The notes under the pieces: model-generated
Told to the model about the DNA's origin: nothing
Database searches by the model: none
What the model saw: the letters and a program-made list of their open reading frames with translations, nothing else
In this document: positions 45,674 through 62,320 of the stretch, one piece after another
How the letters are laid out: each line of letters begins with the position of its first letter
Numbering within the stretch: position 1 is the first letter of the stretch
Assembly (NCBI GenBank): GCA_022560615.1
Contig: JADFSR010000006.1
Coordinates: forward strand, 62,001 to 126,000
Source of the DNA: Gemmatimonadota bacterium
Lineage (GTDB): Bacteria; Gemmatimonadota; Gemmatimonadetes; Longimicrobiales; Gaopeijiaceae
Direction of reading: 5' to 3'
Length of the DNA: 64,000 bases
Made by a program: the position numbers and the translations under genes

Positions 45674-45928
45674 GTGAACGCAACTCAGCGCAAGACATTC
45701 CAGTGCATCTTCGGAAGGCCCACACGGGCTGACGTTCGCTGGTCCAGCATCGAGGGACTGGTCAGGGCGTTGGGGGGCGAAGTCACCGAGGGTCGTGGTT
45801 CTCGGGTCCGATTCCGACTCGGAGACCGCGTGGCGACTTTCCACGGACCACACCCTAAGCGGGTCACCGGGAAAGCGACTCTCGAGGACGTCAGACGTTT
45901 CTTGGAGAATGCGGGAGTCCGGCCATGA
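45674..45928 (+). CDS. hicA: HicA-type mRNA-interferase toxin
   Basis: 84 residues in the HicA family. The start is GTG, because the ATG at 45669 is followed by an in-frame stop. The conserved WSSIEGLVRALGGEV, GRGSRVRFRLGDRVATFHG, HPKRVTGKATLEDVRRF and LENAGVRP form the double-stranded-RNA-binding-like fold with the family His in FHGPHP. Its stop overlaps the hicB start by ATGA. It would cleave mRNA when free of HicB. Confidence 0.92.
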   Translation: MNATQRKTFQCIFGRPTRADVRWSSIEGLVRALGGEVTEGRGSRVRFRLGDRVATFHGPHPKRVTGKATLEDVRRFLENAGVRP

Positions 45929-46335
45929 TCGAGTACAAGGGGTACACCGGGGTCTTCGAGTTTGACCCGTCCATCGATGCGTTTCACGGACGTGTGATCG
46001 GACTTCAGGATGTCGTGACGTTCGAGGGGCGCTCTGTTGAGGAGCTTCGGAGCGAGATGGAAGAGTCTGTCGAGGATTACCTCTCGCTTTGCGCGGAGGT
46101 TGGCAAGGAACCAGAGCGACCCTACCGCGGGGAGTTCTTGGTTCGCACGACGCCAGAGGTACATAGGGCGGTCGCGACCGCAGCGGAGGCCGCCGGACTA
46201 AGTCTGAACGCTTGGGTCGAGACGACCATCTCCGCGATTGCCGACCAGCGTCGTGTTGCCCCAATACCGCGAACAGGGGTCTCCAAAAGGGCGGCCAAGA
46301 AGACGAAGAGGGCGACAGCTGAGCGGCGCAAGTGA
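45925..46335 (+). CDS. hicB: HicB-type antitoxin
   Basis: 136 residues. The N-terminal partial RNase H-like fold begins MIEYKGYTGVFEFDPS and includes FHGRVIGLQDVVTFEGRSVE, with the ELRSEMEESVEDYLS helix. The C-terminal LVRTTPEVHRAVATAAEAAG and LSLNAWVETTISAI form a ribbon-helix-helix-like DNA-binding domain. It should neutralise HicA and repress the operon through the tandem repeat at 45646. The tail is unusually Lys/Arg-rich. Confidence 0.92.
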   Translation: MIEYKGYTGVFEFDPSIDAFHGRVIGLQDVVTFEGRSVEELRSEMEESVEDYLSLCAEVGKEPERPYRGEFLVRTTPEVHRAVATAAEAAGLSLNAWVETTISAIADQRRVAPIPRTGVSKRAAKKTKRATAERRK

Positions 46336-46422: not shown

Positions 46423-47631
46423 ATGAGGGGAACGATATTGGCAATTCGGGCAGGGGACCGCGTCCGGGCTGCGGCGAGGCTGCTCGGAGCGCTCGCGTTG
46501 ACGGCATGCGGTGGTGACGACGCGACCGACGTACGCGCGCTCGCGGTCTCCATCGAGCCGAGCCGGGCGCTCATCGTAGGTGTCGGCGAGAGCGTGGACT
46601 TCGGCGCGGTGGCGCGCGACACCGATGGCACTCTCGTCACTGGGGAGACGCGATGGGCGTCGGATCCCGCGATCGCCGAGATCGGCCCGAATGGTGTGGC
46701 GACGGGTGTGGCGGCCGGTGTCACAACGATCTCCGCCACGATCCGGGGCGCAACCGGCACGGCTCATCTAGAAGTCTTCGTGCCCGACGCGGTCGCCGCG
46801 TACGAGGTCGGCACGAGCTACCTCGGGCGCAACGGATACGTCGAGTACATGCCAGGGGAGCTGCCGGTCGTGCTGTCGGCACCTCACGGCGGGGCGTTCA
46901 CGCCCAACGAGATCCCGGATCGCACCTTTGGCACGACGGCCACCGATCGCAATACCGTCGAGCTCATTCTCGCCGTACGCGAGTCGTTCCTCGAGCAGAC
47001 AGGCCGAGCGCCACACGTCATCATCTCCCACCTCGCACGTAGCAAGTTCGATGCAAACCGCGAGATCGTCGAGGCTGCCCAGAGCGATCCGTTCGCGGAG
47101 CAGGCTTGGGAGGAATTCCAGGACTGGATCGGGATGGCGCGGGTGACGATTGATCAGGACTTCGGTCGGGGCATGTATTTCGACTTGCACGGTCACGGTC
47201 ACGACATCGACCGGCTCGAGCTCGGCTACCTGCTGAGCGCGAGCGACCTCAACCAGTCTGACACGCCGCTCAACGCGCTGGCAGTCGTCGCCCGCAGCAG
47301 CATTCGCGACCTCGGCCGGGATTCGCCGCTCCCGTTTTCACAACTTCTGCGTGGACCTACCTCCCTGGGCGGCTATCTGCAGGCCGAGGGTGTGCGCGCT
47401 CTGCCCAGCCCGGGCGATCCCTCGCCTGGCAGCGATGCCTACTTCACGGGTGGGTACAACACCCGCCGGCATGGCGCCGTTTCGGACGGTGAAGTCATCA
47501 GCGGGGTCCAGATCGAGCATCACTTCCCGGGCCTCCGGGACACCGATGCCAACCGGCGCACGTATGCGGCACGGCTCGCGCGGTCGATCCGGCTCTTCAT
47601 GTTGCAGCACTACGGCTTCTTCTCCCCTTGA
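46423..47631 (+). CDS. BIG2-containing lipoprotein with N-formylglutamate-amidohydrolase-like domain
   Basis: 402 residues. A lipobox (LLGALALTACGGD) gives an envelope lipoprotein. Residues about 40-120 form a BIG2 Ig-like domain (WASDPAIAEIGPNGVATGVA and GVTTISATIRG). The remainder matches the N-formylglutamate-amidohydrolase-like fold: PVVLSAPHGGAFTPNEIPDR, DLHGHGHDIDRLELGYLLS and the late GVQIEHHFPGLRD. PHGG, DLHGHGH and EH are the probable zinc ligands and catalytic residues. The true substrate, perhaps a peptide or amide, is unknown. ATG 46423 used. Confidence 0.75.
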   Translation: MRGTILAIRAGDRVRAAARLLGALALTACGGDDATDVRALAVSIEPSRALIVGVGESVDFGAVARDTDGTLVTGETRWASDPAIAEIGPNGVATGVAAGVTTISATIRGATGTAHLEVFVPDAVAAYEVGTSYLGRNGYVEYMPGELPVVLSAPHGGAFTPNEIPDRTFGTTATDRNTVELILAVRESFLEQTGRAPHVIISHLARSKFDANREIVEAAQSDPFAEQAWEEFQDWIGMARVTIDQDFGRGMYFDLHGHGHDIDRLELGYLLSASDLNQSDTPLNALAVVARSSIRDLGRDSPLPFSQLLRGPTSLGGYLQAEGVRALPSPGDPSPGSDAYFTGGYNTRRHGAVSDGEVISGVQIEHHFPGLRDTDANRRTYAARLARSIRLFMLQHYGFFSP

Positions 47632-47729: not shown

Positions 47730-48530
47730 TCAGCGTCCTCGGTTTCGTCCGAGCCCCCTCAGAGGCGATCGGCCCTCGCGCGTTGTCAGGTCGATCTCCA
47801 TTTCTTCGCCGTTCACCACGATGGTCGCTGTCTCGTCGCCATCGAACGTGATCGTGATATTCGCGACGCGTGTCTCGTCACCGTTCGGGCCGTTTACGAC
47901 CGACCCGGTCATGGAGCGGGTGATCGTACCGGAAATCGGGTATCGTGTCTCTGATCCCGGTACGGGCACGACGACATTGCTGTACGTGAACGTGCCCGAC
48001 ATCTGTGACGTACGGACTGTCCCGTCCTCAGCGATATTCCGGCTGCGGGTGATTTCCTCCTCGCCGCTTCCGTTCCAGGTACGGTGAGTCTCTGCACCCG
48101 CCATACCCGAGACGGTCATGTCGCGCAGGCGATAGATGGTTGCGGTCCAATCGTCGCGCGCGACGTCACCACTGACCTCGCTCTGGTAGTGGATGCTCGC
48201 CGTGGTTTCCTCGTCGTAGCTCTCTTGCTCGGCACCGGCCGCGTCATAGAAGGTCTCTGTGCGAGTACCGGAGAGCAGATCACCGATGCCGTGTCGGCCG
48301 CCTGGTTGACCGTGCCCGCCCGAATCGCCGGTGCCGCCTGGTCCACGGAATGCAAACGGCATGCTCCACGTCCCGACATCCTCGAGAGCCGCGTCGGCCG
48401 CGACGATCGCCATGTCCAGGAGCAGGCCGTCGTCGATCGAATCGAGTCCGGTCGAATCCTCGCAGGCCGCGACCGCGAGGCCGGCGGCCAACGCGAGCGT
48501 GCCCCTCACTACGATCCGTCTTTGTCTCAT
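47730..48530 (-). CDS. Lipoprotein of unknown function
   Basis: 266 residues with a signal and lipobox (LALAAGLAVAACEDS). The mature part is rich in Thr/Ser and beta strands (FYDAAGAEQESYDEETTASI, ATIYRLRDMTVSGMAGA and THRTWNGSGEEEITRSR). It contains a Gly/His-rich patch (DSGGHGQPGGRHGIG). No family is recognised. The protein could be an outer-membrane lipoprotein. 114 bp separate it from the GMC gene. Confidence 0.65.
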   Translation of the reverse strand: MRQRRIVVRGTLALAAGLAVAACEDSTGLDSIDDGLLLDMAIVAADAALEDVGTWSMPFAFRGPGGTGDSGGHGQPGGRHGIGDLLSGTRTETFYDAAGAEQESYDEETTASIHYQSEVSGDVARDDWTATIYRLRDMTVSGMAGAETHRTWNGSGEEEITRSRNIAEDGTVRTSQMSGTFTYSNVVVPVPGSETRYPISGTITRSMTGSVVNGPNGDETRVANITITFDGDETATIVVNGEEMEIDLTTREGRSPLRGLGRNRGR

Positions 48531-48644: not shown

Positions 48645-50258
48645 CTACGAGCTCGCCTCTGGAAATGAGCGGCCGATCTCTTCCGCGGAACGAAGTGACA
48701 GTGCCGAGAACGTGAGCGTCCCGTTGTTGCATCCGGCTGACACGAGTGTCGGCGCGCCAACCACGAAGAGGTTTTCGTGATCGTGAGTCCGCCCCCAGGA
48801 GTCGACGACGCTGGTGTTGGCATCGTCGCCCATGCGGCAACCGCCGCCTGGGTGGTCCTGTGTGCTGTCCACGGAGGTGCGTAGCACACGCCCCCCTCCT
48901 GCTCGCGCCACGCGGTCGAAGTTCTCGCGAATCCGGTCCTCCGTGTGGCCACGGACGTCGCGCGACACTAGTGCGTCTCGAAACTCGAGCCTCGGCATCG
49001 GGTCCCCGAAGCGGTTGGTGGTCGCCCGGTCCAGCGTGAGGCGACTCTCCCGGTCGGGGATCACGTCGTAGTAGGAGCGAAGGCGCGTCGTTCCCGTCGC
49101 GCTGCGAGCTCTCCAGTCGGCCATCACCTCGTCCCCGAGCAGAACGCTTCCGGAGTCGTCTCTCAGCCGGGGTCCCCTCGATACCGTGGACTCCCAAACG
49201 CGGAAGTCGTGCCGCACGTATCGCCCGTTGGAGAGCCCCGGCCCGCCCGGGAGCTGAGGGCGCTGGAAGTGCTTCGAGAGCAGGCTGTGGCTGTAGTACA
49301 TGCCGGGGAGCAGCCGCATCGGGAGCTCGACGAACGCGTTGACGTTTCGATGGCCGGTCATGTAGCGGCCGAGTGTGCCCGAGGAGTTGGCCATGCCGTC
49401 CGGGAAGCGATCGCTAGCCGACAGCATCAACAGGTGTGGACTCCACGTATAGCCGCCGGCGAGTACGAACGTCCGGGCCCGGAAGACGATGTCCGTGTCG
49501 GGATCGTCGTAGCTGCGCCCGATCGCCGCGTGGATGCCGTCCGACCCGGCTTCGAGTTCGAGCCGTCGTACCAGCGTGCGCGTCTGCAGCCGAATCCGAC
49601 CGGCATCGAGCAGCTGCGCGAACGTGAAGTCCGGTGAGTACTTGGCGCCGGTCGGGCAGATGTTGCAGGTGTCGCACCGCTGGCAGACGTTGCGCCCCCT
49701 CCACGGCTCGGTGTTCTTTGCGACCGGGTTCGTCCAGATTGGAAGGTCTGCACTCTCGATCCACTCGCGCAGCCGCTTAAGCGTCCACGTGAGTGGCACC
49801 GCACGCATCGGGTACGGCGATGCACGGGGATCCAGTGGTTCCGGGCCCTGCTCCCCGGCGACACCGATCCGTTCTTCGGCTTCCTGGTAGTACGGGTCCA
49901 GCGTGTCGTAGTCGATCGGCCAGTCCGTATGCACGCCGAACAGCGATTGCAGACGGAAGTCCTCGGGTGAGAAGCGCGGAACGACCCCACCCCAGTGCAG
50001 CGCCTGGCCGCCGACAACCATCGAGCGGGACATTATGCCCTCAGCCGACTGATCGTCGATGTGGTCGTTGGTCCACGGATTCTCACCGTAGGCGACGAAT
50101 CGGTGGCGTCGCTGTTGACGGTCTGCGAGTGGGGCCGAGTGCCCGCCAGCCTCCACGACGAGCACGTCTACGTCGCGCTCTTCGGTGAGCTTCTCGGCGA
50201 CCATCGCCGCGCTGATGCCGCCTCCGATGATCAGGACGTCGGTCTCCACCTGCCGCAT
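48645..50258 (-). CDS. GMC-family FAD oxidoreductase with a four-cysteine cluster motif
   Basis: 537 residues beginning MRQVETDVLIIGGGISAAMV, the FAD-binding Rossmann entry. A CQRCDTCNICPTGAKYSPD segment (C192, C195, C198, C201) recalls the cysteine-rich insertion of FAD-dependent sugar dehydrogenases that carry a [3Fe-4S] cluster. The C-terminal GMC motifs are clear (HPGGGCRMGDDANTSVVDS and CNNGTLTFSALSLRSAEEIG). It overlaps the small subunit gene and forms the catalytic subunit of a membrane-directed dehydrogenase. The acceptor could be a quinone or cytochrome not present here. Substrate (sugar or polyol) unknown. Confidence 0.88.
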   Translation of the reverse strand: MRQVETDVLIIGGGISAAMVAEKLTEERDVDVLVVEAGGHSAPLADRQQRRHRFVAYGENPWTNDHIDDQSAEGIMSRSMVVGGQALHWGGVVPRFSPEDFRLQSLFGVHTDWPIDYDTLDPYYQEAEERIGVAGEQGPEPLDPRASPYPMRAVPLTWTLKRLREWIESADLPIWTNPVAKNTEPWRGRNVCQRCDTCNICPTGAKYSPDFTFAQLLDAGRIRLQTRTLVRRLELEAGSDGIHAAIGRSYDDPDTDIVFRARTFVLAGGYTWSPHLLMLSASDRFPDGMANSSGTLGRYMTGHRNVNAFVELPMRLLPGMYYSHSLLSKHFQRPQLPGGPGLSNGRYVRHDFRVWESTVSRGPRLRDDSGSVLLGDEVMADWRARSATGTTRLRSYYDVIPDRESRLTLDRATTNRFGDPMPRLEFRDALVSRDVRGHTEDRIRENFDRVARAGGGRVLRTSVDSTQDHPGGGCRMGDDANTSVVDSWGRTHDHENLFVVGAPTLVSAGCNNGTLTFSALSLRSAEEIGRSFPEASS

Positions 50259-50839
50259 CACACCGCCTCCGGCTCGGACGGCGCCGTGTCGATCCCTCGG
50301 CAGGATCGCTCCGCGATGCGTCGCCCGTAGCAGCGATCGACCGCCTCGCTCGAGCCGAACCAGTGCGCCATGAGCGCGACCGCGACGTGCCGTGCCCGCA
50401 GCGGGTTCGGAAGTCCGGAGCCCCCGTCCAGCCCCTGCCGCGTGATCAGATCGCGTCGTTGGGGGATGTCGAGCTCGGCGAAGGACGAGCCGGTTCGCCT
50501 GCTCGCCTCGATCTCGAGCGCTTCGAGCTGAGCCTGCCAGGCAGGGACGGGGTCGGGTGGCCCGTAGCGGATCTCCGACGTGCCGTACCCGTGGTTCAAC
50601 TCCGCAACGGGCTCGTACTCGGACGCCCATTGCTCGAAGGCTTGCACGGCGTCTTCACGAGACGCGTCTTCCAGGTCGGAAGGCAGGACGACCTCCGCGA
50701 CGGCGCGCAGCACCGCCGCGTGCAGTGGGGCTGCCGAGTCCCCCTGGCGTTCGGCGCTGCCCGGCGCGCAGCCGGAGACCGCTGCCGCGGAAAGCGCGGC
50801 GCCGGAGCGCTTCAGAAACGTGCGACGGTCTTGGGGCAT
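50258..50839 (-). CDS. Gluconate 2-dehydrogenase subunit 3-like protein
   Basis: 193 residues. MPQDRRTFLKRSGAALSAAA is a Tat-type signal (RRTFLK) followed by a lipobox-like VSGC. The mature part (LHAAVLRAVAEVVLPSDLED, FEQWASEYEPVAEL, then MAHWFGSSEAVDRCYGRRIA) matches the small subunit that accompanies GMC dehydrogenases. It overlaps the GMC start. In similar complexes this subunit assists export of the flavin subunit. ATG 50839 is used; upstream codons lack family similarity. Confidence 0.85.
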   Translation of the reverse strand: MPQDRRTFLKRSGAALSAAAVSGCAPGSAERQGDSAAPLHAAVLRAVAEVVLPSDLEDASREDAVQAFEQWASEYEPVAELNHGYGTSEIRYGPPDPVPAWQAQLEALEIEASRRTGSSFAELDIPQRRDLITRQGLDGGSGLPNPLRARHVAVALMAHWFGSSEAVDRCYGRRIAERSCRGIDTAPSEPEAV

Positions 50840-50873
50840 AGTTCGGGTCCTCACTTGGCTGCGGCGTGCCAAT

Positions 50874-52808
50874 CTATCTCGCCAGCGCGTACGCCACGAG
50901 TGTTCCGGCCGTGCCGCCACCACCAGTGGCGATCACGACGAATTGTCTCGCGTCCGACGTCGCGTAGCTCATCGGATTCGCGTATCCACGCCCGGGCAGC
51001 GGAGCGCTCCACAGCTCCGCGCCCGTTGCAGAGTCGAACGCGTAGAGCACATCGCCTCCGCCTGTGAGGAAGACGAGCCCACCCGCCGTAGCGACTGGGC
51101 CGGCCGCTCCGGTGACGCCGAGGCGCTCGGGCAGCTCGACGCTCGCCAGCGCGGGGTGCTCGCGAACGTCCCGCCGGTCGCCCACCGCCTTCTGCCACAC
51201 GATCTCCCCGGCGTTCATGTCGATGGCGGTCAGCGTGCCGTACGGAGGATCGGAGATGGGGAGGCCCTGTACTCGCAGCGTGCGCGACGACGTGCGATCG
51301 ATCGCGTAGTCCGCGACCGTGGTCTCGGGATTTGCCGCGGCGATGCGAAGAAGGCTCGGTTCTTCGGTCGACTTCACGAACAGGTAGCCCGTGGTCGGGT
51401 CGATCGCCGCGCCGCCCCAGTTCCCGCCCCCGATGATGCCGGGCATCGCCAACGTGCCCTCGAGCGACGGTGGTGTATACAGGTTCCCGAACCGATAGCC
51501 ACGCGTGAGCTCGATCGCCTCGGCGCGCAGCGCGGGTGTCAGGCTGATCAGGTCGTCTTCGGTGAAACTCTGCTTGGCGAACGGAGGCGGCTTCGTCGGG
51601 AACGGCTGCATGGCCGCGGCTACCTCGCCGGGCACGCTACTCGCGAGAACCTCACGTTCCTCGATCGGCCACACGGGCTCCCCGCTCTCACGGTCGAACG
51701 CGTACACGAAGCCGGTCTTGCCGACAATGGCGACCGCGTCCACACTGCGACCATCGACCTCAGCCGTGTAGAGAACCGGGGGTGCCGGCAGGTCGTAGTC
51801 CCAGAGGCCGTGGTGAACCGTCTGGAAGTGCCAGAGAAGCGCTCCCGTGCGCGCGTCCACCGCGAGCAACGACTCGGCGTAGAGGTTGTCGCCGAGCCTG
51901 TGCCCTCCGTAGTAGTCGTTGCTGGGAGTGCCGACGCCGAAGTAGAGCACGCCTCGCTCCTCGTCGACGACCATGGGCGCCCACGCATTGGTGTGTCCTG
52001 TCACTTTTTCGGAGCCGTCCTCCCATGTCTCGTTCCCGGGCTCCCCCTCCTGCGGGATCAGGTTGAGGTTCCAGACTCTCTCCCCCGTGCGCACGTCGAA
52101 CGCCTGAAGGTTGCCGGGCGGATCGTTCGGGTAGACGAACCCGTCCCATACGCCGTTGCCGAGGATGACGAGATCCTCGAAGACCAGTGGCGGAGACGTC
52201 TGCGTATAGTGCAGCGGGTTGGTCGGCCACAGCAGGTCCCGGGTCAGGTCGATTTCGCCGCGCTGGCCGAACGACTCGATCTTCGCCCCCGTAGCGGCGT
52301 CGATGGCGATCAACCGCCAGCGCGTATTCAGGAAGATCCGCCGCTCGCCTTCACCCGACCACATCGCGATGCCGCGGTGCACGAAGCCGGTTCCGTTCGG
52401 TGGCTGCCCGAAGTCGGTTGTGCGCGGGTCGTATGCCCAGAGCTGCTCGCCCGTCCCGGCGTCCAGCGCGACGACACGGTTGTATGGGGTCGACAGGTAC
52501 ATGGTGTCCGAGATCACGATCGGCGTGACCTCGAAGTCGCCGGGTCGCACCGTCTGGTTGCGCACCGGACGTGCGGGTCCGTCGAGCGGTCGTTCACCCG
52601 TTTCCCAGGTCCAGGCGACTTCGAGGGCCGCGACGTTGCTACGGTCGATGGTGGCCAACGGCGAGAACTTCGTGCCGGCCTGGTCGCGGCCGTAGAAGGG
52701 CCAGTCGGCGTCAGTGAACGTTTTCGTGGTCCGCGAGACGTCGGGGGCGCTGCAACCGGCGATCGCCATCAACGCGAGGACGAAGCCAACGAATACGATC
52801 CCTTTCAC
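50874..52808 (-). CDS. Pyrroloquinoline-quinone-dependent dehydrogenase lipoprotein
   Basis: 644 residues. Lipobox in MAIAGCSAPD. The eight-blade propeller has repeated Trp-docking-like segments (VVALDAGTGEQLWAYDP, LIAIDAATGAKIESFGQRG, FVYAFDRESGEPVWPIEER and TLTAIDMNAGEIVWQKAVG). It matches the glucose/sorbitol-type quinoprotein family, which oxidises sugars in the periplasm. No heme CxxCH is present, so electrons must leave via another carrier. No pqq biosynthesis genes are in the window. The stop/start overlap with the M28-like gene (ATGA) makes one transcript. Confidence 0.9.
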   Translation of the reverse strand: MKGIVFVGFVLALMAIAGCSAPDVSRTTKTFTDADWPFYGRDQAGTKFSPLATIDRSNVAALEVAWTWETGERPLDGPARPVRNQTVRPGDFEVTPIVISDTMYLSTPYNRVVALDAGTGEQLWAYDPRTTDFGQPPNGTGFVHRGIAMWSGEGERRIFLNTRWRLIAIDAATGAKIESFGQRGEIDLTRDLLWPTNPLHYTQTSPPLVFEDLVILGNGVWDGFVYPNDPPGNLQAFDVRTGERVWNLNLIPQEGEPGNETWEDGSEKVTGHTNAWAPMVVDEERGVLYFGVGTPSNDYYGGHRLGDNLYAESLLAVDARTGALLWHFQTVHHGLWDYDLPAPPVLYTAEVDGRSVDAVAIVGKTGFVYAFDRESGEPVWPIEEREVLASSVPGEVAAAMQPFPTKPPPFAKQSFTEDDLISLTPALRAEAIELTRGYRFGNLYTPPSLEGTLAMPGIIGGGNWGGAAIDPTTGYLFVKSTEEPSLLRIAAANPETTVADYAIDRTSSRTLRVQGLPISDPPYGTLTAIDMNAGEIVWQKAVGDRRDVREHPALASVELPERLGVTGAAGPVATAGGLVFLTGGGDVLYAFDSATGAELWSAPLPGRGYANPMSYATSDARQFVVIATGGGGTAGTLVAYALAR

Positions 52809-54607
52809 GAGCCCGCCCCGCGCTCGATCAGATCCGTGGCTGCGCGCGTCGCCTCGTCGATCGCCTCGAGAATGCGGTTTCGCTCCCGGAGTAGTTGTGC
52901 CATCGCGAAGCGGTACCGGTCCGACGAGGGGTCTTCCTCCGCGAGGATGCGAGCGGGCTCTAGGCCGGGCAGCGGACGGCTGTAGATACCCGGGTCGGGG
53001 TGATGGTCACTTCCCGGCACGAACATGATCCGGTGGAGCGGGCGGAGGACGCGGAGGATGGCGCTGTCCAGCGCCCTCGTCGAGTCCTGCGGCACCGGGG
53101 CACGAGCGAAGGCCTCCGTCCACATCTCGAGCAGCCGATCCACTCGGGCGCGCGCCTGAGACAGGTCGAGCGCCCGCTCGGACTCCGCCTCCCGCTCCAT
53201 CAACGCGTCCATCAACGCATCCAGCTCGAGCTGGATGCTCACAGGGTACACGGGCGCTGCCACGAGCTCCGAGATCGCGGTGACGTACAGCTCGGTGTCG
53301 GTCCTGAGGACGTCGAAGTCGATCTTGTCGTAGGTGTCGTCCGGTGTGTGCCACCACCAGTAGCCCCCGTCTTCCGCCGATCGCGAATGGTTGAACTGCA
53401 GCAGAGGAAGCCCGATCCCGTTGAAGGCCTGGTCCGAGTTGCGTCCGGGGCGCCCGGGGCGAATGGCCTGGCCGGTCAGGCTACCGACGATGTCGATCGC
53501 GAGGGGGGCGAGCGCCGGAGACGTGGATGCGCCGAAGCGTCGGGCGCCCATCTGCCCAACGCCGTCGATGTTCAGGTAGGCGAGCCCGCGCCTTCGCAGA
53601 TCGTCGAAGAAGGTATCGGCGAACCAGGTCGAGCCGGCGTAACGACCGTTCGAGTGGCCGGGCCACCAGGCGACCAACAGACCGTGCCGCATTTTGTCCC
53701 GGTTCTGGTGGTAGGAGATGGCCATCTGCAGCATCGCCGCGTTGGACGCACCCTCGTCGGTGCCCCCGTGGTACCACCCGTCGATGTGCCCGCCGAGGAG
53801 CACGTACGGCGTCGTGTCGTCAGCACCGTCAGGCATGATGCGAGCGACGCAGAGGCGGAGCGGCTTCCAGCCCGTGTCGACCTCCGTGCGCACGCGCACG
53901 GTGACGTCAGCGCTCGCCATCATCGCGCGCAGACGGTCTCCGTCGCTCCTCTTGATGTGCGCGACCGGTAGCTTCGGTAGACGGTGCTGGCTCCTCAGCG
54001 AGGGTGTGCCCCAGGTCGACGTGACGATGAGATCGTTCACGCGCTCTTCGGGATTCACGAAGATCGCCGCGACGGCACCCAGTTCCTCGAGCACCCGCGT
54101 CGAGATGTTTCGCGGCTGGCCCGTTACGATCGCGACCTTCCCGCGTACGTGCTCGAAGCCGCTGGGGTCGCGAACGACGAGCCGTTCACCCGTTCCGAGC
54201 TCAAGCTCCGGGAGGTCCCCCAGGTCCCCCAAATCGATCGCGACACCTTCGACTCCCTCGGTGGCGCCGGAGAATGCCATCGTGATCGCCTGCGGGTCGA
54301 AATCCGTGCCGGGCACGGTCACGGATGCCGAGATGGGGTTGCTCGTGTAGCCCATGAACTCGTGGACTTCGACCGGGACCCCCGCCGCCGCCAACGTCGC
54401 CACGATGTAGTCGATCGCCGCGTTCTCGCCCGGGCTTCCCGAGGGCCGCTCGTACCTGGTGATCTCGCGGGCATGCGCGTCGAGGCGGTCGGTCGTGACC
54501 GCGGCCAGCACCCGAGCTGTGAGGTCCGGCTGCTGCCCAGCGACGCGCGTCGCGTCGGCGAGGGTGAGGGCGAAAGAGGCGATGGTCCCGACGACGAGCG
54601 ACCTCAT
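52805..54607 (-). CDS. Secreted M28-like protein with PA domain, lacking the usual catalytic glutamates
   Basis: 600 residues with a signal peptide (MRSLVVGTIASFALTLADA). A PA domain follows (GERLVVRDPSGFEHVRGKVA and FVNPEERVNDLIVTS). The M28 core shows VLLGGHIDGWYHGGTDEGAS in place of the normal GxHxDSW region, and AWWPGHSNGRYAGSTWFAD where active M28 enzymes have the EE pair before GLLGS. A QAFNGIGLPLLQFNHS segment and the closing GGYWWWHTPDDTYDKIDFD with the late His are present. It may be a non-peptidase member. It overlaps the quinoprotein gene by ATGA, first gene of the operon. Confidence 0.8.
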   Translation of the reverse strand: MRSLVVGTIASFALTLADATRVAGQQPDLTARVLAAVTTDRLDAHAREITRYERPSGSPGENAAIDYIVATLAAAGVPVEVHEFMGYTSNPISASVTVPGTDFDPQAITMAFSGATEGVEGVAIDLGDLGDLPELELGTGERLVVRDPSGFEHVRGKVAIVTGQPRNISTRVLEELGAVAAIFVNPEERVNDLIVTSTWGTPSLRSQHRLPKLPVAHIKRSDGDRLRAMMASADVTVRVRTEVDTGWKPLRLCVARIMPDGADDTTPYVLLGGHIDGWYHGGTDEGASNAAMLQMAISYHQNRDKMRHGLLVAWWPGHSNGRYAGSTWFADTFFDDLRRRGLAYLNIDGVGQMGARRFGASTSPALAPLAIDIVGSLTGQAIRPGRPGRNSDQAFNGIGLPLLQFNHSRSAEDGGYWWWHTPDDTYDKIDFDVLRTDTELYVTAISELVAAPVYPVSIQLELDALMDALMEREAESERALDLSQARARVDRLLEMWTEAFARAPVPQDSTRALDSAILRVLRPLHRIMFVPGSDHHPDPGIYSRPLPGLEPARILAEEDPSSDRYRFAMAQLLRERNRILEAIDEATRAATDLIERGAGS

Positions 54608-54816: not shown

Positions 54817-55593
54817 CTAATTCCTCCTTCTTCGGGGTGGGGTTGAGGTGGCGATCCCTGGCCGCTGCCGAGTGCGGTAGCTGTCGCCCTCGAGGACGAT
54901 CTGATAGGCGTTGTGCGCGAGGCGGTCGAGGGCGCTCTGAGCGAGGATGGGGTCATCGAAGAGGGGGATCCATTCGTCGATACTGCGGTTGGAAGTGACG
55001 ATGGCGGATGTGCGTCGGTGGCGCTCGATGATGATCTCGTAGAAGTCGCTGGACTGCTGGGCATTGAGGCGCCGGAGTCCAAAATCGTCAATGACGAGCA
55101 GATCAGGCGCGAGCAGAGAGCGGATGACCTTCTCGGTGGAGTTATCGGCCCTGGACTGGTGGATCATCTTGAGCAGGTGGTCGGATCGGAGGAAGAGCAC
55201 GCGGTGCCCTGCGCGGCAGGCAGCGTGGCCGAGGGCGCAGCGAGGAAGGTCTTGCCGACACCAACGGGCCCGAGGAAGAGGATGTCTTCGTGGCGGTCGA
55301 GGAAGCCGAGGCCGAAGAGATCACGTACGCGGTCGCGGTCGAAGGTGACTGGCGCGTCCCAGGTCGAAGTCCTCGAAGGTGTGGAGTTCGTCGAAGCCCG
55401 CACGATCGAGGCGGTTGGAGAGGTTCTTATGGTCACGACGTCCGATCTCGTCGGTGAGGGCGAGCTCGAGGAAGTCGAGCGGTGCGCGGCCACTCTTCTG
55501 GGCGTGGGCGGCGCGGTCGGGCAGCGTGGGCACGAGGCCACTGAGCTTGAGCCGCTTGAGCACGGCCTGGAGCGAGGGTTTGACGTCATTCAT
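54817..55593 (-). pseudogene. istB: IstB helper ATPase, two frameshifts
   Basis: The family sequence is spread over three frames. MNDVKPSLQAVLKRLKLSG opens at 55593. The frame shifts near 55350 into DILFLGPVGVGKTFLAA (Walker A), and again near 55205-55230 into LVIDDFGLRRLNAQQSSDFY (Walker B) and SIDEWIPLFDDPILAQSALD. The C-terminus has a proline/arginine tail. Each piece matches IstB, which loads IstA on DNA, so the gene is inactive unless these are sequencing errors. Confidence 0.85.
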
Positions 55594-56234
55594 GAGTCGG
55601 ACTCCTGGGTGGGTGCGTGTGAGAAGCTCCCTGGGGAGCGCAGGAAGCGGGTCTCGATGGGGATCACGGCGGCATCCTGGGCGATGGGCAGTTCGAGCTG
55701 ATCGAGATCCTTGAGGAGGATAGACTCCACGCGGCGGACGTTGATGAGCTCGAAGGCCAGGGCACGCCGGCAGGCCGACGCGACGCGATGCTCACCGTAC
55801 TTCTTGGTGAGGGGGAGCAGCTTCTGGGCCTGACGGATCTTGGTCCAGGGCAGCGTTCCGGAGAGGAGTTGCTCCATGAAGCGACCGATGTCGGAGCTGA
55901 GGGCCATGGCCTGGCGGATGATGCGCTGGGGGTCCCGGAGCGCGTAGGGCGTCAGTTCGGCGGGATAGTCGTTGTAGTCCGTGGATCGGCCGCCTGGGTC
56001 CTGACGGGGATGGGTCTTGATGAGGGAGCCACCGTCGTAGATGTGCACCAGCCCTGTGTCGGCACGGACCCAGACCTGTTGGCGGATGTAGCGCGTGGGG
56101 ACCGAGTACAGGGCCTTGCCGAAGTTGATGTGATGGTCCGGGTGGACCTTGCACGGCCACCGCCGACTTGCTCTCGCCCCGGCGTGTTTACGTACGTCGC
56201 CGGGGCATGGGTGGTCGTCGACACCATGCACCAA
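55590..56234 (-). pseudogene. istA: IstA transposase, C-terminal fragment
   Basis: About 200 residues of IstA C-terminus: VHPDHHINFGKALYSVPTRY, GSLIKTHPRQDPGGRSTDYN, ALSSDIGRFMEQLLSGTLPW and ELINVRRVESILLKDLDQLE. The integrase catalytic DDE core that should lie upstream is absent. The first 30 residues from the nominal ATG 56234 do not match the family, and the 5' edge is junction motif copy C. Inactive. Confidence 0.85.
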
Positions 56235-56271: not shown

Positions 56272-58386
56272 ATGGATCTCAAACCAATCGAGTTTCGAAA
56301 TATGCGCACCTACGCTCAGCCCGAACAGCCTGCTCCCATGCCAGAGGCCCTCGCCAACATCAACTCGAGGGTCCTTGATGATCGAATGCTGAAGAGGATC
56401 CTGAATCCGGAGATCTTCACAGCTTTCGCCGAATGCCGAGCCAGCGGACAGCGAATGTCCAAGGGAGCCGCGAACGAACTGGCGCAGTCCGTCCGCGAGT
56501 GGGCGCAATCCAGGGGGTGTGTCGGGTACTCCCACTTGTTCTCCCCCATGCGGGGAGCCCTGCACGGCGAGAAGCTCGAGACCTTCATGGGAATGGACTT
56601 TGAGACCGGCGACCTGATCGTAAACCTGTCGGGCTCGGAGCTCTTTCAGACCGAGACAGATGGCTCCTCGTTCCCCAACGGCGGTCTTCGGACGACCCAC
56701 GAGGCGGCCGCCTATATCGGCTGGGACATGCAATCGCCGCCGTTCGTGTACGGCCAGACGCTCTACATCCCTGCCGCCTTCGTAACGTGGACCGGCGCGG
56801 CGCTGGATCAGAAGACCCCGCTCCTGCGCTCCAGCGATGCGGTGAACAAACACGCGCTACGGATGTTGCGCCATCTGGGCGACACGCAAGCAAACAAGGT
56901 ATTCAGCAATGTGGGCTGGGAGCAGGAATTCTTCGTCGTCCCACGCGAGCATTATCTGGCGCGACCCGACCTCGTAGCCACCGGGCGGACGCTCTTTGGT
57001 CAGAAGCCACTCCGTGGTCAGGAGCAGTCCACCAACTACTTCGGCCGGATGCCGGTTGCGATTCGAGCGTATCTAGACGAGGCCAGGGACGTTATGTGGT
57101 CCATGGGGATCTCCATCGACTGCATCCACAACGAGGTAGCCCCGGCACAGTACGAGATCTCGCCCATCTTCAGCCTGGTCAACCTAGCCGCGGACACCAA
57201 CGTTCTGGCCATGGATGTGCTCCGCGACCTGGCCTATGAGCACGATCTGATGGTGCTCTTCCACGAGAAGCCGTTCGCAGGCATAAACGGCACCGGCAAA
57301 CACAACAACTGGGGCTTGAACACCGATACCCGGGACAACCTGTTTGTTCCGGGCGAGACCCCCGCCGAAAACCGGCGCTTTGTCGCCTTCCTCGCTGCCG
57401 TGCTGCGCGGGGTGAACAAGCACGGTGACCTGCTGCGCTGCGGGGTGTCCACCTCGGGGAATGACCACCGGCTCGGTGCCCAGGAGGCGCCCCCTCCCAT
57501 CATCACCGTCCACCTCGGGAAGTCCCTCGAGAAACACCTCAAAGGGATAGCGGCTGGCGGCGAGCTATCGGGGTATGGCCTGCACGACAAGTTGATTCAA
57601 GTGGCCACCAGCGTGGTGGATATCGAAGCCAACCTCGAGGACCGGAACCGAACTGCGCCGTTTCCCTGGTGCGGAAATCGCTTCGAGTTCCGCTCTATCG
57701 GGGGAAATCAGCACATCGCTTTCCCCCTCGCTCTGGTGAACACCGTCGTGGCCGAGGGCCTCAAGCACATGTGCGATCAGATGGACGCGGGCGCCGACGT
57801 CGACCAGGTGATCCGGGAGACCATCAAGGCTAACCAGGGGGTGCTCTTCTCGGGTGACGGCTACTCAAGCGCGCTCTACGAGCACGCGGAGGAGCACAAT
57901 CTGTTCCACCTCAAGAACAGCCCGGACGCCTATGAATGTCTGACCTCCACTAAAAACCTCAAGCTGTTCTCAGAGCTCGGGGTCTTCAGCGAGAAAGAAG
58001 CGCGAGCTCGGCAGAATGTGCTCCTTGAGGCCTACGCCACCGATCTCCAGATCGAGGCGAGGACGCTGATCCACATGATGCAAACCCTCATTGTGCCTGC
58101 TGTTCTCCAGGATCTCCAGAACATCGCAGCGTCCGGCTTTACCTCCCGAGCGCTCACGATGCGGCGCGAGCTCGCGCAGAGCTTGTTCACCGAGCTGGAT
58201 AGCCTGATTGAGGCGTTCGACGGGGCTGCCATTGACGATCCGATGGAGGCCGCGCGGTATGCCGAGGATGTCCTCAAGACGAGGCTGCTGGCGGCCCGCG
58301 AGGTGATCGATCCGCTGGAGGGCATGGTGGACTCGCGCCTCTGGCCGGTCCCCACCTACGATGAGCTGTTGCACAGCCATCTGTAG
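56272..58386 (+). CDS. glnN: Type III glutamine synthetase
   Basis: 704 residues, the length of GSIII rather than the 450-470 residues of GSI. Family markers are visible: VGYSHLFSPMRGALHGEKLE, NVGWEQEFFVV with the metal-binding Glu pair, INGTGKHNNWGLNTDTRDNL, STSGNDHRLGAQEAPPPI and NRFEFRSIGGNQHIAFP. It makes glutamine from glutamate, ammonia and ATP in the cytosol. It is followed by an ammonium transporter 82 bp on, a natural pair. The start ATG 56272 lies very near the IS21 remnant; an alternative Met is at codon 11. The upstream TAAGTACTAAGTA offers no clear ribosome binding site. Confidence 0.93.
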   Translation: MDLKPIEFRNMRTYAQPEQPAPMPEALANINSRVLDDRMLKRILNPEIFTAFAECRASGQRMSKGAANELAQSVREWAQSRGCVGYSHLFSPMRGALHGEKLETFMGMDFETGDLIVNLSGSELFQTETDGSSFPNGGLRTTHEAAAYIGWDMQSPPFVYGQTLYIPAAFVTWTGAALDQKTPLLRSSDAVNKHALRMLRHLGDTQANKVFSNVGWEQEFFVVPREHYLARPDLVATGRTLFGQKPLRGQEQSTNYFGRMPVAIRAYLDEARDVMWSMGISIDCIHNEVAPAQYEISPIFSLVNLAADTNVLAMDVLRDLAYEHDLMVLFHEKPFAGINGTGKHNNWGLNTDTRDNLFVPGETPAENRRFVAFLAAVLRGVNKHGDLLRCGVSTSGNDHRLGAQEAPPPIITVHLGKSLEKHLKGIAAGGELSGYGLHDKLIQVATSVVDIEANLEDRNRTAPFPWCGNRFEFRSIGGNQHIAFPLALVNTVVAEGLKHMCDQMDAGADVDQVIRETIKANQGVLFSGDGYSSALYEHAEEHNLFHLKNSPDAYECLTSTKNLKLFSELGVFSEKEARARQNVLLEAYATDLQIEARTLIHMMQTLIVPAVLQDLQNIAASGFTSRALTMRRELAQSLFTELDSLIEAFDGAAIDDPMEAARYAEDVLKTRLLAAREVIDPLEGMVDSRLWPVPTYDELLHSHL

Positions 58387-58468
58387 CCATCTCAAACGAT
58401 GATCCGATCTAATCACGACGCCCGGCGACGGCGCCGTCCAACAACCCATATAGAGACGTAGCCGACAC

Positions 58469-60091
58469 ATGCATCGGTTGAAGACACTCACTCCCGGGTT
58501 GCTACTCGCGGGGCTGCTCTGCCTTCTGGTTTTTGGTTTCCCCGAGACCGCCCTGGCACAAGAGAATGCGGAGCCGCAAAGCGTCGCATTCGTTGTCGGG
58601 ACCCTCTGGATACTCCTGGCTTCAGCCATGGTGTTCATGATGCACCTCGGCTTTGCGACTCTCGAGGCGGGTCTCGTCCAGGAGAAGAACACGGTCAACA
58701 TCCTCTTCAAGAATGTCACCATCGTGTCGATGGGCGTTCTCATCTACGCGCTGATCGGGTTCGGCCTGATGTATCCCGGTGAAGAGTTTGCCGGAGCCTT
58801 CTTCGGCTTCGCAGGATTTGGGATTGGCACCGACGCAAGTGGAATCACCAGTGCATACAACGAGAACTACACCTACTGGGCCGACTTCATCTTCCAGGCC
58901 ATGTTCGCCGCCACGGCGGTCACCATCGTCTCGGGTGCCGTGGCAGAGCGGGTGCGGATTCTGCCTTTCATGGTCTTTGCGTTCCTCTATCTGGCTTTGT
59001 GCTACCCGATAGTCGGTATGTGGAAGTGGGGTGGCGGGTTCCTCGACGCTATGCAGACGCCGTTCTACGACTTTGCCGGCTCGACGCTCGTCCACGGTGT
59101 GGGCGGTTGGGCTGCGCTCATGGGTTGCATCGTTCTGGGTCCGAGGCTCGGGAAGTACGACGGCGACAAGGTAAATACCTTGCAGCCAGGGAGCCTGCCC
59201 CTAGCCACGGTGGGTGTCTTTCTGCTGTGGTTCGGGTGGTTTGGATTCAACGGCGGCTCGGTTCTGTCGGCCGATCCCGGCGCCGTGTCCTATGTCTTCG
59301 TCACTACGTACCTGGGCGGTGCCGCAGGCGTCATGGGAGCCATGCTGGGCACGGTGGTGTTGATCAAGCATCTGGACCTCGCCATGGTCCTCAACGGCGC
59401 CCTCGCGGGGCTGGTGGGCGTTACCGCCGGTGCAGACCAGCTGGGTATCCTGGATGCAGTGGCCACCGGGTTTATCGCTGGCGTCCTCGTGGTCGCCGTG
59501 GTCCTGTTCCTTGATCGAAAGCTCAAGATCGACGATCCGGTCGGCGCCATCTCCGTTCACCTCGTCTGTGGCATCTGGGGTACCCTGGCGGTGGGCCTCC
59601 TAGGCAACCTGGCCTCGCCCTCTCAACTCCTGAGCCAGGTGATCGGGATCGTGAGCATCGGTGGCTTCTGCGCAGCCTTCTCCTTTGTGGTGTTCTTTAC
59701 CATGAAGAAGGCCAACTGGCTGAGGGTGGAAGAAGAGGTGGAGCTTGCTGGACTGGATATGCACGAGCACGGCGTCTCCGCCTATCGGGGGGAACGGGAC
59801 ACCAACCCTCCGACGGTCATGATCCTCTCACCGGCCTATGGATCCACGGTTTCCGGACGAATCGACGTCTTGGCCAACGCAATGGACAATCGAGGCGTGA
59901 GCGGCGTACGGTTCACTCTTGACGGGAATGACCTCGGTGAGGGCATTGAAGCTCCACCCTATGTCATGGTTTGGGACACGACGACGGCCAGCAACGGGGC
60001 GCATGTCCTCAAGGCTATCGCTTGGGATGCCGCCGGAAATCAGGGGGTCTCTGTCGAATTCAAGATCACGATCGACAACCCAGTCAGGTAG
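58469..60091 (+). CDS. amt: Ammonium transporter with C-terminal Ig-like domain
   Basis: 540 residues. A signal-like N-terminus is followed by an Amt/Rh core of 11 helices up to about residue 412. The twin pore histidines are found (STLVHGVGGWAALMG, H209, and ISVHLVCGIWGTL, H364). The regulatory C-terminal helix ELAGLDMHEHGVSAYRGE is typical of GlnK-controlled Amt. From about 445 to 540 there is an extra Ig-like domain (VMILSPAYGSTVSGRIDVLA and DNRGVSGVRFTLDGNDLGEG, HVLKAIAWDAAGN). Amt C-termini are normally cytosolic, so an Ig-fold there is unusual. Confidence 0.9.
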   Translation: MHRLKTLTPGLLLAGLLCLLVFGFPETALAQENAEPQSVAFVVGTLWILLASAMVFMMHLGFATLEAGLVQEKNTVNILFKNVTIVSMGVLIYALIGFGLMYPGEEFAGAFFGFAGFGIGTDASGITSAYNENYTYWADFIFQAMFAATAVTIVSGAVAERVRILPFMVFAFLYLALCYPIVGMWKWGGGFLDAMQTPFYDFAGSTLVHGVGGWAALMGCIVLGPRLGKYDGDKVNTLQPGSLPLATVGVFLLWFGWFGFNGGSVLSADPGAVSYVFVTTYLGGAAGVMGAMLGTVVLIKHLDLAMVLNGALAGLVGVTAGADQLGILDAVATGFIAGVLVVAVVLFLDRKLKIDDPVGAISVHLVCGIWGTLAVGLLGNLASPSQLLSQVIGIVSIGGFCAAFSFVVFFTMKKANWLRVEEEVELAGLDMHEHGVSAYRGERDTNPPTVMILSPAYGSTVSGRIDVLANAMDNRGVSGVRFTLDGNDLGEGIEAPPYVMVWDTTTASNGAHVLKAIAWDAAGNQGVSVEFKITIDNPVR

Positions 60092-60175: not shown

Positions 60176-60455
60176 TCAGGTGATCTGGCTCGAGCAGGTC
60201 GGATTGGGGCTGGTCACGCCTTCCAGACCCATGCGCCGCAGAAGTGCCTGGAACCGTGTGTGTGCACGGAGGATCGTGAACTCGGGTCTGACCGCGACCT
60301 CCCTGACAGATGAGCCGATCGGATGGCATAGGCCTCTTCGAGGTGGTCGAGCGCCCGGTCCAGGTCACCCAGACCGGTGGCTACCATCGCCGCAGCGTGG
60401 TAGCTGGCCGGTCCCTGGCTTCCGTCGAACTGCTGAAGAAGTGCCAGCGCCGCTC
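60176..60455 (-). pseudogene. TPR-protein 3' remnant, frameshifted
   Basis: On the minus strand, a TPR-like stretch (ALALLQQFDGSQGPASYHAA, TGLGDLDRALDHLEEAYAIR) changes frame near 60300-60310 and ends REVAVRPEFTILRAHTRFQA-LLRRMGLE, the typical end of a long TPR protein. It directly follows the broken MBL-fold gene at about 60455. It has no start of its own, so it is the scar of a deletion or rearrangement. Confidence 0.7.
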
Positions 60456-60629
60456 CGTGCCGTCCTCCGCACGGAGGAGAAACGAAGCGTGCGCGATGTA
60501 TTCAATCTCGACGCCGGGGCTCCGGGTGGCTGCGTCGCTTCGAGATGCCGCATCCGGGTCGCCCGCTTCCGCTGCGCACCCGGCCACCAGCACTGCGACA
60601 AGAATCCTAAGAGAGCCGGCGAGTCTCAA
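60456..60629 (-). pseudogene. MBL-fold lipoprotein, 5' fragment
   Basis: Starting at a TTG that overlaps the upstream stop as TTGA, about 58 codons encode a lipobox signal (LRILVAVLVAGCAAEAG) and the first strands of a metallo-beta-lactamase-fold protein (GVEIEYIAHASFLLRAEDG). The zinc-binding HxHxDH motif, which would follow, is absent. The reading frame runs into the TPR remnant and stops about 75 nt later (60381). Last cistron of the peptidase-PHP-membrane-protein operon. Confidence 0.7.
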
Positions 60630-61300
60630 TCCAAGCTCCCAGCCTGCTCGCTGACCGGCCATGTCAGCGTGCCACGCCCGCCGAAGTGCCGGCGCTCCTG
60701 GCTCTCGACGGAGGGATCCCGATACCGGATGAGGCTCGCCAAGTGGCGTTCGGTCGTCTTGCCGAGGGCCCTGGCGAGTGCGGTCGTTCCCTGCTCGAGG
60801 ATGTCGCCGACCTTTCGCGCGGGCATCGGCACTTTTCCGTCCCGGATCGCGCTGAGCCGCGCGAGGTGTTCGAGACTGTCCATGAAGCCGCGCACGGCAC
60901 CGACCGCCTCCGGGTCGTCATTGAGGAGGCGGCGGCTGCGCGTCCCGATGTTCAAGAATAGTCCCTCGGTGAAGTCCGGCAGCGGATCGTCAGCTCCCAC
61001 GGCATTCAGGATGCCGAGCACCTCGTCGGTGTCCATTTCCCGGGGTCCGCCCTGCCATACCCACACGACGTGCTCGACCGCGTGCAGCGTATCCCACGCG
61101 AGCTGACGGCCCCTCGTGTGGTGTCGCCGGCGCTCGAAGAACCACTCCACGACCGCGACCGTGACCACGATACCGACAAGCTCGGTCCCCAAGTTGGTCA
61201 GGATCGTGCCCGTGGGTGTGTTCACACCGATGAGGAAGGACCAGACGAGGATCAGGGCCGCGGTACCGAGGCACGCGGCGGTGACGATCCATCGGAGCAT
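60626..61300 (-). CDS. Membrane protein of unknown function with two N-terminal helices
   Basis: 224 residues. Two hydrophobic helices occur at the N-terminus (LRWIVTAACLGTAALILVWS, then ELVGIVVTVAVVEWFFERRR). The rest is a helical soluble domain (LAWDTLHAVEHVVWVWQGG, GFMDSLEHLARLSAIRDGK). No family is recognised. It begins 3 bp after the PHP gene stop and is coupled to the MBL fragment by TTGA. Its C-terminus ends in a cytosolic region if the helices form a hairpin. Confidence 0.7.
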   Translation of the reverse strand: MLRWIVTAACLGTAALILVWSFLIGVNTPTGTILTNLGTELVGIVVTVAVVEWFFERRRHHTRGRQLAWDTLHAVEHVVWVWQGGPREMDTDEVLGILNAVGADDPLPDFTEGLFLNIGTRSRRLLNDDPEAVGAVRGFMDSLEHLARLSAIRDGKVPMPARKVGDILEQGTTALARALGKTTERHLASLIRYRDPSVESQERRHFGGRGTLTWPVSEQAGSLD

Positions 61301-61303
61301 CAG

Positions 61304-62320
61304 CTATCTCCGGGTTACGAAGACGGGTTGGGTCCAGGCGACTCGACCTCCCGAGTCGGTCACCTTCGCTCGAACATAAGCTACGTCGTTGCCTCCGAGA
61401 TCGAACGCCGCAGGGTTCTCGTCGGTCTCTGCCAAGATCACCCCCGAAGGACCCGAGAAGACCGTGCTGAACCTGAAGTCGTCCAACTCTGAGATGTGGA
61501 TCTCGATGCGGTCGGGCGTAATCACTATGTCCGAGAGCGCGACACCCGTACTTGCGTAGAATCGACCCGCCTCGAGCGACGCCATGAGCTCCAGGGCATC
61601 CAGCGACGAGGCGTTCACCGCGACCCACCCTCGGCCTGGATTCACGCGGCCGGGCGCGAACTCTCCCTGGAAGTGATGCGCGTCGTCGACCGCGATTCCG
61701 TAGAGGACCTTGCCCTCCGTGAGCAAAATGTCCCAGATCTCTTCGAGACCCGGGCTGCCGCCGCCGCCTTCGTTGTGGACCGTCGGATGCCCGTTCCAGA
61801 TCTCGAGCAGTCTGTCGCGCTCGATTTGCCTCAGCTCGTCGGCTCCGAAGGACCAGCGGAAGTTCGGATGATTGATGTGCGGGACGCCCTCGACGTCGCG
61901 AATCGCGTCCACGTTCGCCTGGATGGTGGCGACGAGCGTCTCGGCCTGCCGCGCTTCGATGAGCCCGGGAATGTTCAGGCCGTTCACGTGAATCGACGCG
62001 TCCTCGAAGCTGGACGTGACTTCCTCGCCGGGGATCAGCAGGAACGTAGAGTCGACCAGGTGACTGAGCGCGGCGGGATCGGTAAAGACGTTGTGATCAG
62101 TGAGCACCAGAAAATCGTAGCCGTGGTCCTTGTACCACTGCGCTACATACTCGGGCGACGAATCTCCGTCACTCATCGTCGTGTGCGCGTGCGTGTTCCC
62201 CTTGTACCAGCGATCGCCTACGTCTTCCGGAACCTCGAACTCGTAGATTGCCTGCTCGGCGCAGGCCGTTGAGGCGAGCCACGCGAGCACGAAAGCGAGA
62301 CCCAGCGAGAGGCGCTTCAT
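61304..62320 (-). CDS. PHP-domain phosphoesterase-like lipoprotein
   Basis: 338 residues. The signal ends in a lipobox (LASTAC). The PHP metal-binding start is NTHAHTTMSDGDSSPEYVAQ; further His/Asp are in FLVLTDHNVFTDP, HINHPNFRW and AVDDAHHFQGEFA. The C-terminal domain is beta-rich (RFSTVFSGPSGVILAETDEN). PHP proteins hydrolyse phosphoesters; secreted members occur with peptidases or sugar enzymes. The start overlaps the upstream peptidase stop (ATGA). Confidence 0.85.
   Translation of the reverse strand: MKRLSLGLAFVLAWLASTACAEQAIYEFEVPEDVGDRWYKGNTHAHTTMSDGDSSPEYVAQWYKDHGYDFLVLTDHNVFTDPAALSHLVDSTFLLIPGEEVTSSFEDASIHVNGLNIPGLIEARQAETLVATIQANVDAIRDVEGVPHINHPNFRWSFGADELRQIERDRLLEIWNGHPTVHNEGGGGSPGLEEIWDILLTEGKVLYGIAVDDAHHFQGEFAPGRVNPGRGWVAVNASSLDALELMASLEAGRFYASTGVALSDIVITPDRIEIHISELDDFRFSTVFSGPSGVILAETDENPAAFDLGGNDVAYVRAKVTDSGGRVAWTQPVFVTRR

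Follow-up and report, generated by a model that had tools for sequence, protein, structure and literature searches.

A conserved gene set of Gemmatimonadota in which an M28-fold protein with a His-Ser motif accompanies exported quinoprotein and flavoprotein dehydrogenases

On the minus strand of a Gemmatimonadota genome (4.5 Mb, 99% complete), within a stretch of 64,000 nucleotides analyzed here as the window, positions 48645-54607 carry four genes, for an M28-type protein, a quinoprotein with a lipoprotein signal, a small subunit with a Tat signal and a GMC flavoprotein, in this order (Table 1). The M28-fold protein carries a His-Ser pair at the position of the two catalytic glutamates of solved M28 enzymes and, judged by its invariance, this PGHS motif is a conserved alternative site and not decay. 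All parts of the set have known relatives; the new elements are the PGHS clade and the fact that it is found paired, time and again, with exported oxidoreductases. Our reading, which is tentative and held with a little less than even confidence, is that the genes encode a conserved module of the periplasm: a metal hydrolase of non-canonical type and two dehydrogenases would act together on an amide-linked hydroxy compound.

Table 1. Features of the four-gene set and its surroundings, in positions of the window
Feature	Position	Strand	Remarks
M28-fold protein	54607-52805	-	600 aa; Sec-type signal, PA domain, C-terminal dimerization-like region
PQQ-type quinoprotein dehydrogenase	52808-50874	-	644 aa, GTG start; lipoprotein signal AIAGC; mGDH-like soluble core
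Gamma-type small subunit	50839-50258	-	193 aa; Tat signal RRTFLKRS; gluconate 2-dehydrogenase subunit 3-like
GMC FAD dehydrogenase	50258-48645	-	537 aa, without own signal; homologue of FAD-GDH / fructose dehydrogenase large subunit
F43, small lipoprotein-like protein	47730-48509	-	3' of the GMC gene in several genera
F2, Big_2 + N-formylglutamate amidohydrolase-like	46423-47631	+	recurs near M28-PQQ in related genera
IS21 remnant	54817-56231	-	broken IstB + C-terminal IstA piece
Metallo-beta-lactamase-fold hydrolase, truncated N-terminus	60429-60611	-	first ~60 codons, E 2e-12
F44	60626-61300	-	directly upstream of M28 in L042, displaced in the window
F14, CehA/McbA-family PHP metallohydrolase	61304-62320	-	above NCBIfam cut-off; ancestral cluster
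F45, peptidase-like	62317-63987	-	reaches window end; full-length L042 relative is a canonical M28; ancestral cluster

All four genes are present in the order given by the original prediction, and Pfam matches above cut-off are to Peptidase_M28, PQQ and GMC_oxred_C. Start and stop codons overlap, the M28 and PQQ genes sharing 4 bp and the gamma and GMC genes 1 bp; a GMC open reading frame beginning at 50630 was rejected as over-long, the ATG at 50258 being favored by homologues and by coding statistics. The signals read from the sequence (Sec-type on the M28 protein, a lipobox on the quinoprotein, Tat on the gamma subunit and none on the GMC protein) describe an exported set, in agreement with the periplasmic location that had been proposed. 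Named close relatives of the operon belong to the Gemmatimonadota and are mainly uncultured metagenome-assembled genomes, some of them labelled Longimicrobiales.

The M28-like protein matches PF04389 at 48.2 bits (cut-off 21.3), and its AlphaFold model (mean pLDDT 87) shares over nearly the whole chain the three-part fold of the M28B group, which includes glutamate carboxypeptidases II and III and the transferrin receptor. Taken as evidence of kinship only and not of function, the PDB fold matches comprise the glutamate carboxypeptidases (Foldseek E 4e-30) and M28B structures in general at VIA Z 30-36, with transferrin receptor 1 as the top match by Z (36.0, 3.4 Å, 542 residues). Aligned pairwise and by profile to 2ek8, 8ac9, 3iib and 4twe, the protein has H318-S319 at the catalytic Glu-Glu position (Glu424-Glu425 of the glutamate carboxypeptidases), and the replacement of the catalytic glutamates by PGHS-RYAGS thus stands as predicted. 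In GCPII, E424 is the catalytic base and E425 the second-metal ligand; the solved-structure entries matched by Foldseek list GCPII E424 mutants as inactive. The other metal ligands, H274, D284, D348 and H420, align with those of M28 enzymes (four of five kept), the first two and H420 being invariant and D348 nearly so (one Glu).

Calling this protein inactive-looking was correct insofar as both glutamates are missing, but it understated the constraint on the site. The sequence W-W-P-[GA]-H-S-[NT]-[GA]-R-Y-[AG]-G-S is fixed in 34/34 aligned homologues from an unbiased search extending down to 30% identity, and H318, S319, R322 and Y323 are invariant in a selection of 28 sequences with identities as low as 27%. 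In 395 genomes of the phylum, a protein search recovered close homologues from several genera as well as a second, more distant subfamily (~30% identity); the PGHS motif is invariant across both, and a decayed enzyme was rejected on this ground. A literature search for an inactive or alternative M28 site returned nothing on the PGHS motif, and profile libraries classify the clade simply as generic M28 peptidase.

The chief rival to a hydrolase is a non-catalytic protein, a dimeric periplasmic binding or scaffold partner for the dehydrogenases or their substrate in the manner of the transferrin receptor or of M28 pseudoenzymes. We consider it fairly unlikely. The loss of both glutamates from every member removes the accepted M28 mechanism, the closest fold by Z is that of a non-enzymatic receptor, and the many different enzymes that the M28-like protein partners would be compatible with a scaffold. 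However, the four metal ligands and H-S-x-x-R-Y show little or no variation between subfamilies that are 30% identical, whereas the transferrin receptor has lost its metal site. Moreover, the PGHS family in other phyla accompanies M20 amidohydrolases, as enzymes of the same pathway do. These Bacillales and Enterobacterales matches, which were found with patterns holding part of the motif and are therefore no test of its conservation, adjoin a gene for an M20 amidohydrolase, one for a DcuC-type transporter or an amino-acid binding protein, and one for a regulator whose sequence resembles the LysR type.

These results point to a conserved M28-fold clade in Gemmatimonadota, Acidobacteriota, Bacillota and Enterobacterales with a fixed but non-textbook active-site motif. 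It is conceivable, though on balance doubtful, that the WWP[GA]HS proteins are widespread and form an unrecognized class of metalloenzymes on the M28 fold, with His-Ser in the active site and catalysis of something other than ordinary peptide hydrolysis; in Gemmatimonadota and Acidobacteriota they would supply substrates to scavenged-PQQ and FAD-iron-sulfur dehydrogenases.

The quinoprotein aligns throughout with the periplasmic part of E. coli Gcd, the membrane-bound quinoprotein glucose dehydrogenase, with which it has in common the propeller core and most of the PQQ-binding and catalytic residues. Residues H262, R266, D354, W404, D466 and K493 of mGDH are kept, T424 is replaced by Ser and N355 by Gly; these residues have PQQ-binding or catalytic roles. 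Unlike Gcd, the protein has a lipoprotein signal in place of the N-terminal transmembrane domain. Comparison with TIGR03074 (466 bits, short of the cut-off of 832.65) likewise begins only at profile position 145 and indicates that the N-terminal quinone-reacting membrane domain is absent. An 'empty' propeller of the non-PQQ type (TIGR04528) was rejected, given a match far under the cut-off and the retention of the PQQ residues.

There is reason to think that the cofactor is not made by the host. In its genome PqqC was not found and no PqqE scored above the cut-off, and PqqC was also not found in 12/12 related genomes, most of which have the cluster or the M28-PQQ pair; two relatives from the same order carry both PqqC and PqqE. 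A full-length PqqU-like receptor is encoded in the host genome and in relatives, with the aromatic F99, R304 and R365 aligned in a multiple alignment, which overturned an apparent loss of R365 in the pairwise alignment of the host protein. These residues are the published signature of PqqU (aromatic 99, R304 and R365), and Gemmatimonadetes are among its reported carriers (PMC12124388). Because PQQ synthesis genes are lacking and a PqqU-like importer is present, PQQ is probably scavenged through this receptor. The host thus resembles the described PqqU-dependent scavengers (PMC12124388), which combine quinoproteins and the PqqU signature with no PQQ synthesis, but differs from them in having 27 quinoprotein homologues in one genome, among them a paralogue that reaches 48% identity to the quinoprotein of the four-gene set.

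By homology, the GMC protein and its gamma subunit belong to the FAD-[3Fe-4S] glucose/fructose dehydrogenase family. The best solved relatives of the GMC protein are FAD-glucose and fructose dehydrogenases (phmmer E 1.7e-60, residues 5-528), and the catalytic histidine (His469) is kept. The four close cysteines that had been pointed out are C192, C195, C198 and C201; every gamma-linked homologue retains C192, C198 and C201, and only C195 alternates with a neighboring Cys, as expected for three ligands of a 3Fe-4S cluster. The gamma subunit scores 22.9-23.2 bits against Gluconate_2-dh3 (PF13618), just under the cut-off of 23.4, but 14/22 homologues match, and both its RR signal and its position beside the GMC gene are conserved among homologues; a sequence search found no solved relative of this subunit. 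The pair shares with Burkholderia cepacia FAD-GDH (6a2u) and fructose dehydrogenase (7w2j) full-length GMC homology, three cluster cysteines and a Tat small subunit encoded directly upstream and overlapping. It differs in that nearly all of its protein family have Asp or Glu instead of the Asn that precedes the catalytic His, and in that many members have CxxCDTCxxCP in place of CCxxxxCxxxCP.

A further difference is the cytochrome. Known FAD-GDH-type enzymes consist of a catalytic subunit, a Tat hitch-hiker subunit and a triheme subunit (PMC9727119), as do the 6a2u and 7w2j systems, whereas no c-type cytochrome gene (CxxCH) was found in the four-gene group or among its neighbors in the window. 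This absence, which the original prediction singled out as unusual, is real, but it is not particular to the locus: in about 20 gamma-GMC loci across the phylum the pair has no heme c protein beside it. A loss at the host locus alone was therefore rejected, and the missing beta subunit is the rule in this phylum. Dye-mediated activity of a gamma-alpha unit without cytochrome has been compared in earlier work (PMC5979317), and elsewhere in the host genome 21 cytochrome c domain matches exceed the cut-off.

Neighborhoods read up to 20 kb around homologous loci show that the genes are kept together in several genera, as the original prediction required. The order M28-PQQ-gamma-GMC recurs in four other genera (L042, L043, L044 and L054), and PQQ-gamma-GMC-M28 is found in another family (L046, L086 and L087). 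Shorter combinations also exist: most of genus g2 and L041 have M28-PQQ alone, and L061/L122 and the acidobacterial L119 have M28 next to gamma-GMC. Partners were counted in the 48 named loci that contain a close M28 homologue: a PQQ gene stands no more than four genes away in 25, a GMC gene in 8 and both kinds in 6. These figures are counts and not a test, since the set includes truncated contigs and loci that are related to one another. Recurrence in several genera with changed gene order argues against chance. In Acidobacteriota of the class Vicinamibacteria (L105, L116 and L128) an M28 protein 53-55% identical to that of the host adjoins a quinoprotein only 33-37% identical to the host's, less than the host's own paralogue, and the M28-PQQ pairing therefore probably arose more than once.

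The four genes are nevertheless not an obligate unit, since in most genomes with the M28-PQQ pair gamma-GMC is located elsewhere or absent; one genome of the same genus (G117) has no close homologues of M28 or GMC. Elsewhere the M28 gene is accompanied by a Tat-signal aldo/keto reductase, by a Tat-signal epimerase, or by PQQ and then 2Fe-2S and molybdenum hydroxylase subunits. It might be supposed that the set is a loose neighborhood whose exported enzymes, hydrolases as well as dehydrogenases, belong to one habitat-related regulon but share no substrate, and the pairs that stand apart in many genomes, the several quinoproteins per genome (as in the host) and the location of the cluster among generic hydrolases would fit. 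This is nonetheless unlikely in view of the overlapping start and stop codons, the order conserved across genera at 65-80% identity and the repeated re-pairing in rearranged orders.

The company kept by these genes also bears on the substrate. CehA/McbA and N-formylglutamate amidohydrolase-like proteins occur in or near the cluster, a Xaa-Pro dipeptidase-like amidohydrolase adjoins gamma-GMC in five loci and the full cluster in L046, L086 and L087, and penicillin amidase and serine hydrolases are further recurrent neighbors. The original prediction had favored stepwise oxidation of a glycan or glycopeptide, and the GMC protein is indeed closest to glucose/fructose dehydrogenases and the quinoprotein to glucose/quinate/shikimate-type enzymes. 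Membership in either family does not, however, give the substrate range, no glycoside hydrolase or sugar transporter is among the Pfam-identified neighbors, and the recurrent amide/ester hydrolases and oxidoreductases are no less compatible with an amide-linked hydroxy compound; we regard a glycan or glycopeptide as improbable.

From the recurrent amide/ester hydrolases and the alternative oxidoreductases beside M28 we infer the following for the module. The Sec-exported M28-fold protein, with His-Ser in a non-canonical metal site, would hydrolyze or otherwise prepare an amide-linked hydroxy compound, of which the lipid-anchored quinoprotein, with PQQ imported through the PqqU-like receptor, would oxidize one hydroxyl. 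The GMC FAD-[3Fe-4S] enzyme, Tat-exported via its small subunit, would oxidize another hydroxyl or a later intermediate, and the electrons might be taken up by quinones or c-type cytochromes encoded in other parts of the genome. Counting against such a module is the occurrence of the PGHS family in Enterobacterales and Bacillales without dehydrogenases, and the basic role of the M28-like protein may not be linked to oxidation. The clade is here linked with exported dehydrogenases, both quinoproteins and flavoproteins, of bacteria that probably must import PQQ, and the set provides concrete genes with which to find the periplasmic oxidation substrates of mostly uncultured bacteria.

The wider locus suggests an ancestral cluster. 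In L042 and L043 the canonical M28 peptidase F45 and F14 precede the four genes, together with F44 in L042, and F43 follows them; in G226 and G287 a metallo-beta-lactamase-fold protein separates F44 from M28 or PQQ. In the window F45, F14 and F44 (63987-60626) are followed by the stub of the lactamase-fold gene, amt, a type III glutamine synthetase gene (glnA), the broken IS21 and only then M28. The operon has thus become detached from its former upstream genes, with amt, glnA and the IS21 remnant in between.

In the window, a broken IS21 element and the genes for type III glutamine synthetase and for an ammonium transporter now lie between the operon and the genes that used to precede it. On the downstream side of the operon lies an exported protein that combines a Big_2 domain with an N-formylglutamate amidohydrolase-like one, and roughly half the named loci have such a protein close to the M28 gene.

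Features flanking the operon in the window
Feature	Position
HicB-family protein	45925-46335
Big_2 + N-formylglutamate amidohydrolase-like protein, exported	46423-47631
Broken IS21 element	54817-56231
Type III glutamine synthetase + ammonium transporter	56272-60091
Lactamase-fold gene, truncated	60611-60429

The whole genome (G000) holds 27 quinoprotein homologues; neither PqqC nor a true PqqE was found in it, and it encodes a PqqU-like receptor (G000:C35:33945-35918) carrying the published PqqU signature (PMC12124388).

Homologues of the GMC gene in several genomes of genus g5 and in others, including those on contigs G161:C2, G099:C38 and G045:C39, contain, according to the search, one in-frame stop within the aligned stretch. 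At locus L131 (912-6003), Tat-signal 2Fe-2S and molybdenum hydroxylase subunits follow M28-PQQ in place of gamma-GMC. In genome G287 (L184, from 12895 onward), gamma-GMC and the small lipoprotein-like F43 are followed by a Rieske-like Tat protein and by a protein of 607 aa that has two CxxCH motifs; these are a possible electron outlet.

The PGHS-type M28 family is also carried by Bacillales, Clostridia and Enterobacterales (loci L130-L160), where an M20 amidohydrolase and a probable LysR-type regulator adjoin it, along with either an amino-acid binding protein or a DcuC-type transporter. At L124 (7550-11200), the PGHS M28 gene stands directly behind genes that, judging by their sequence alone, resemble kynurenine monooxygenase and tryptophan 2,3-dioxygenase.
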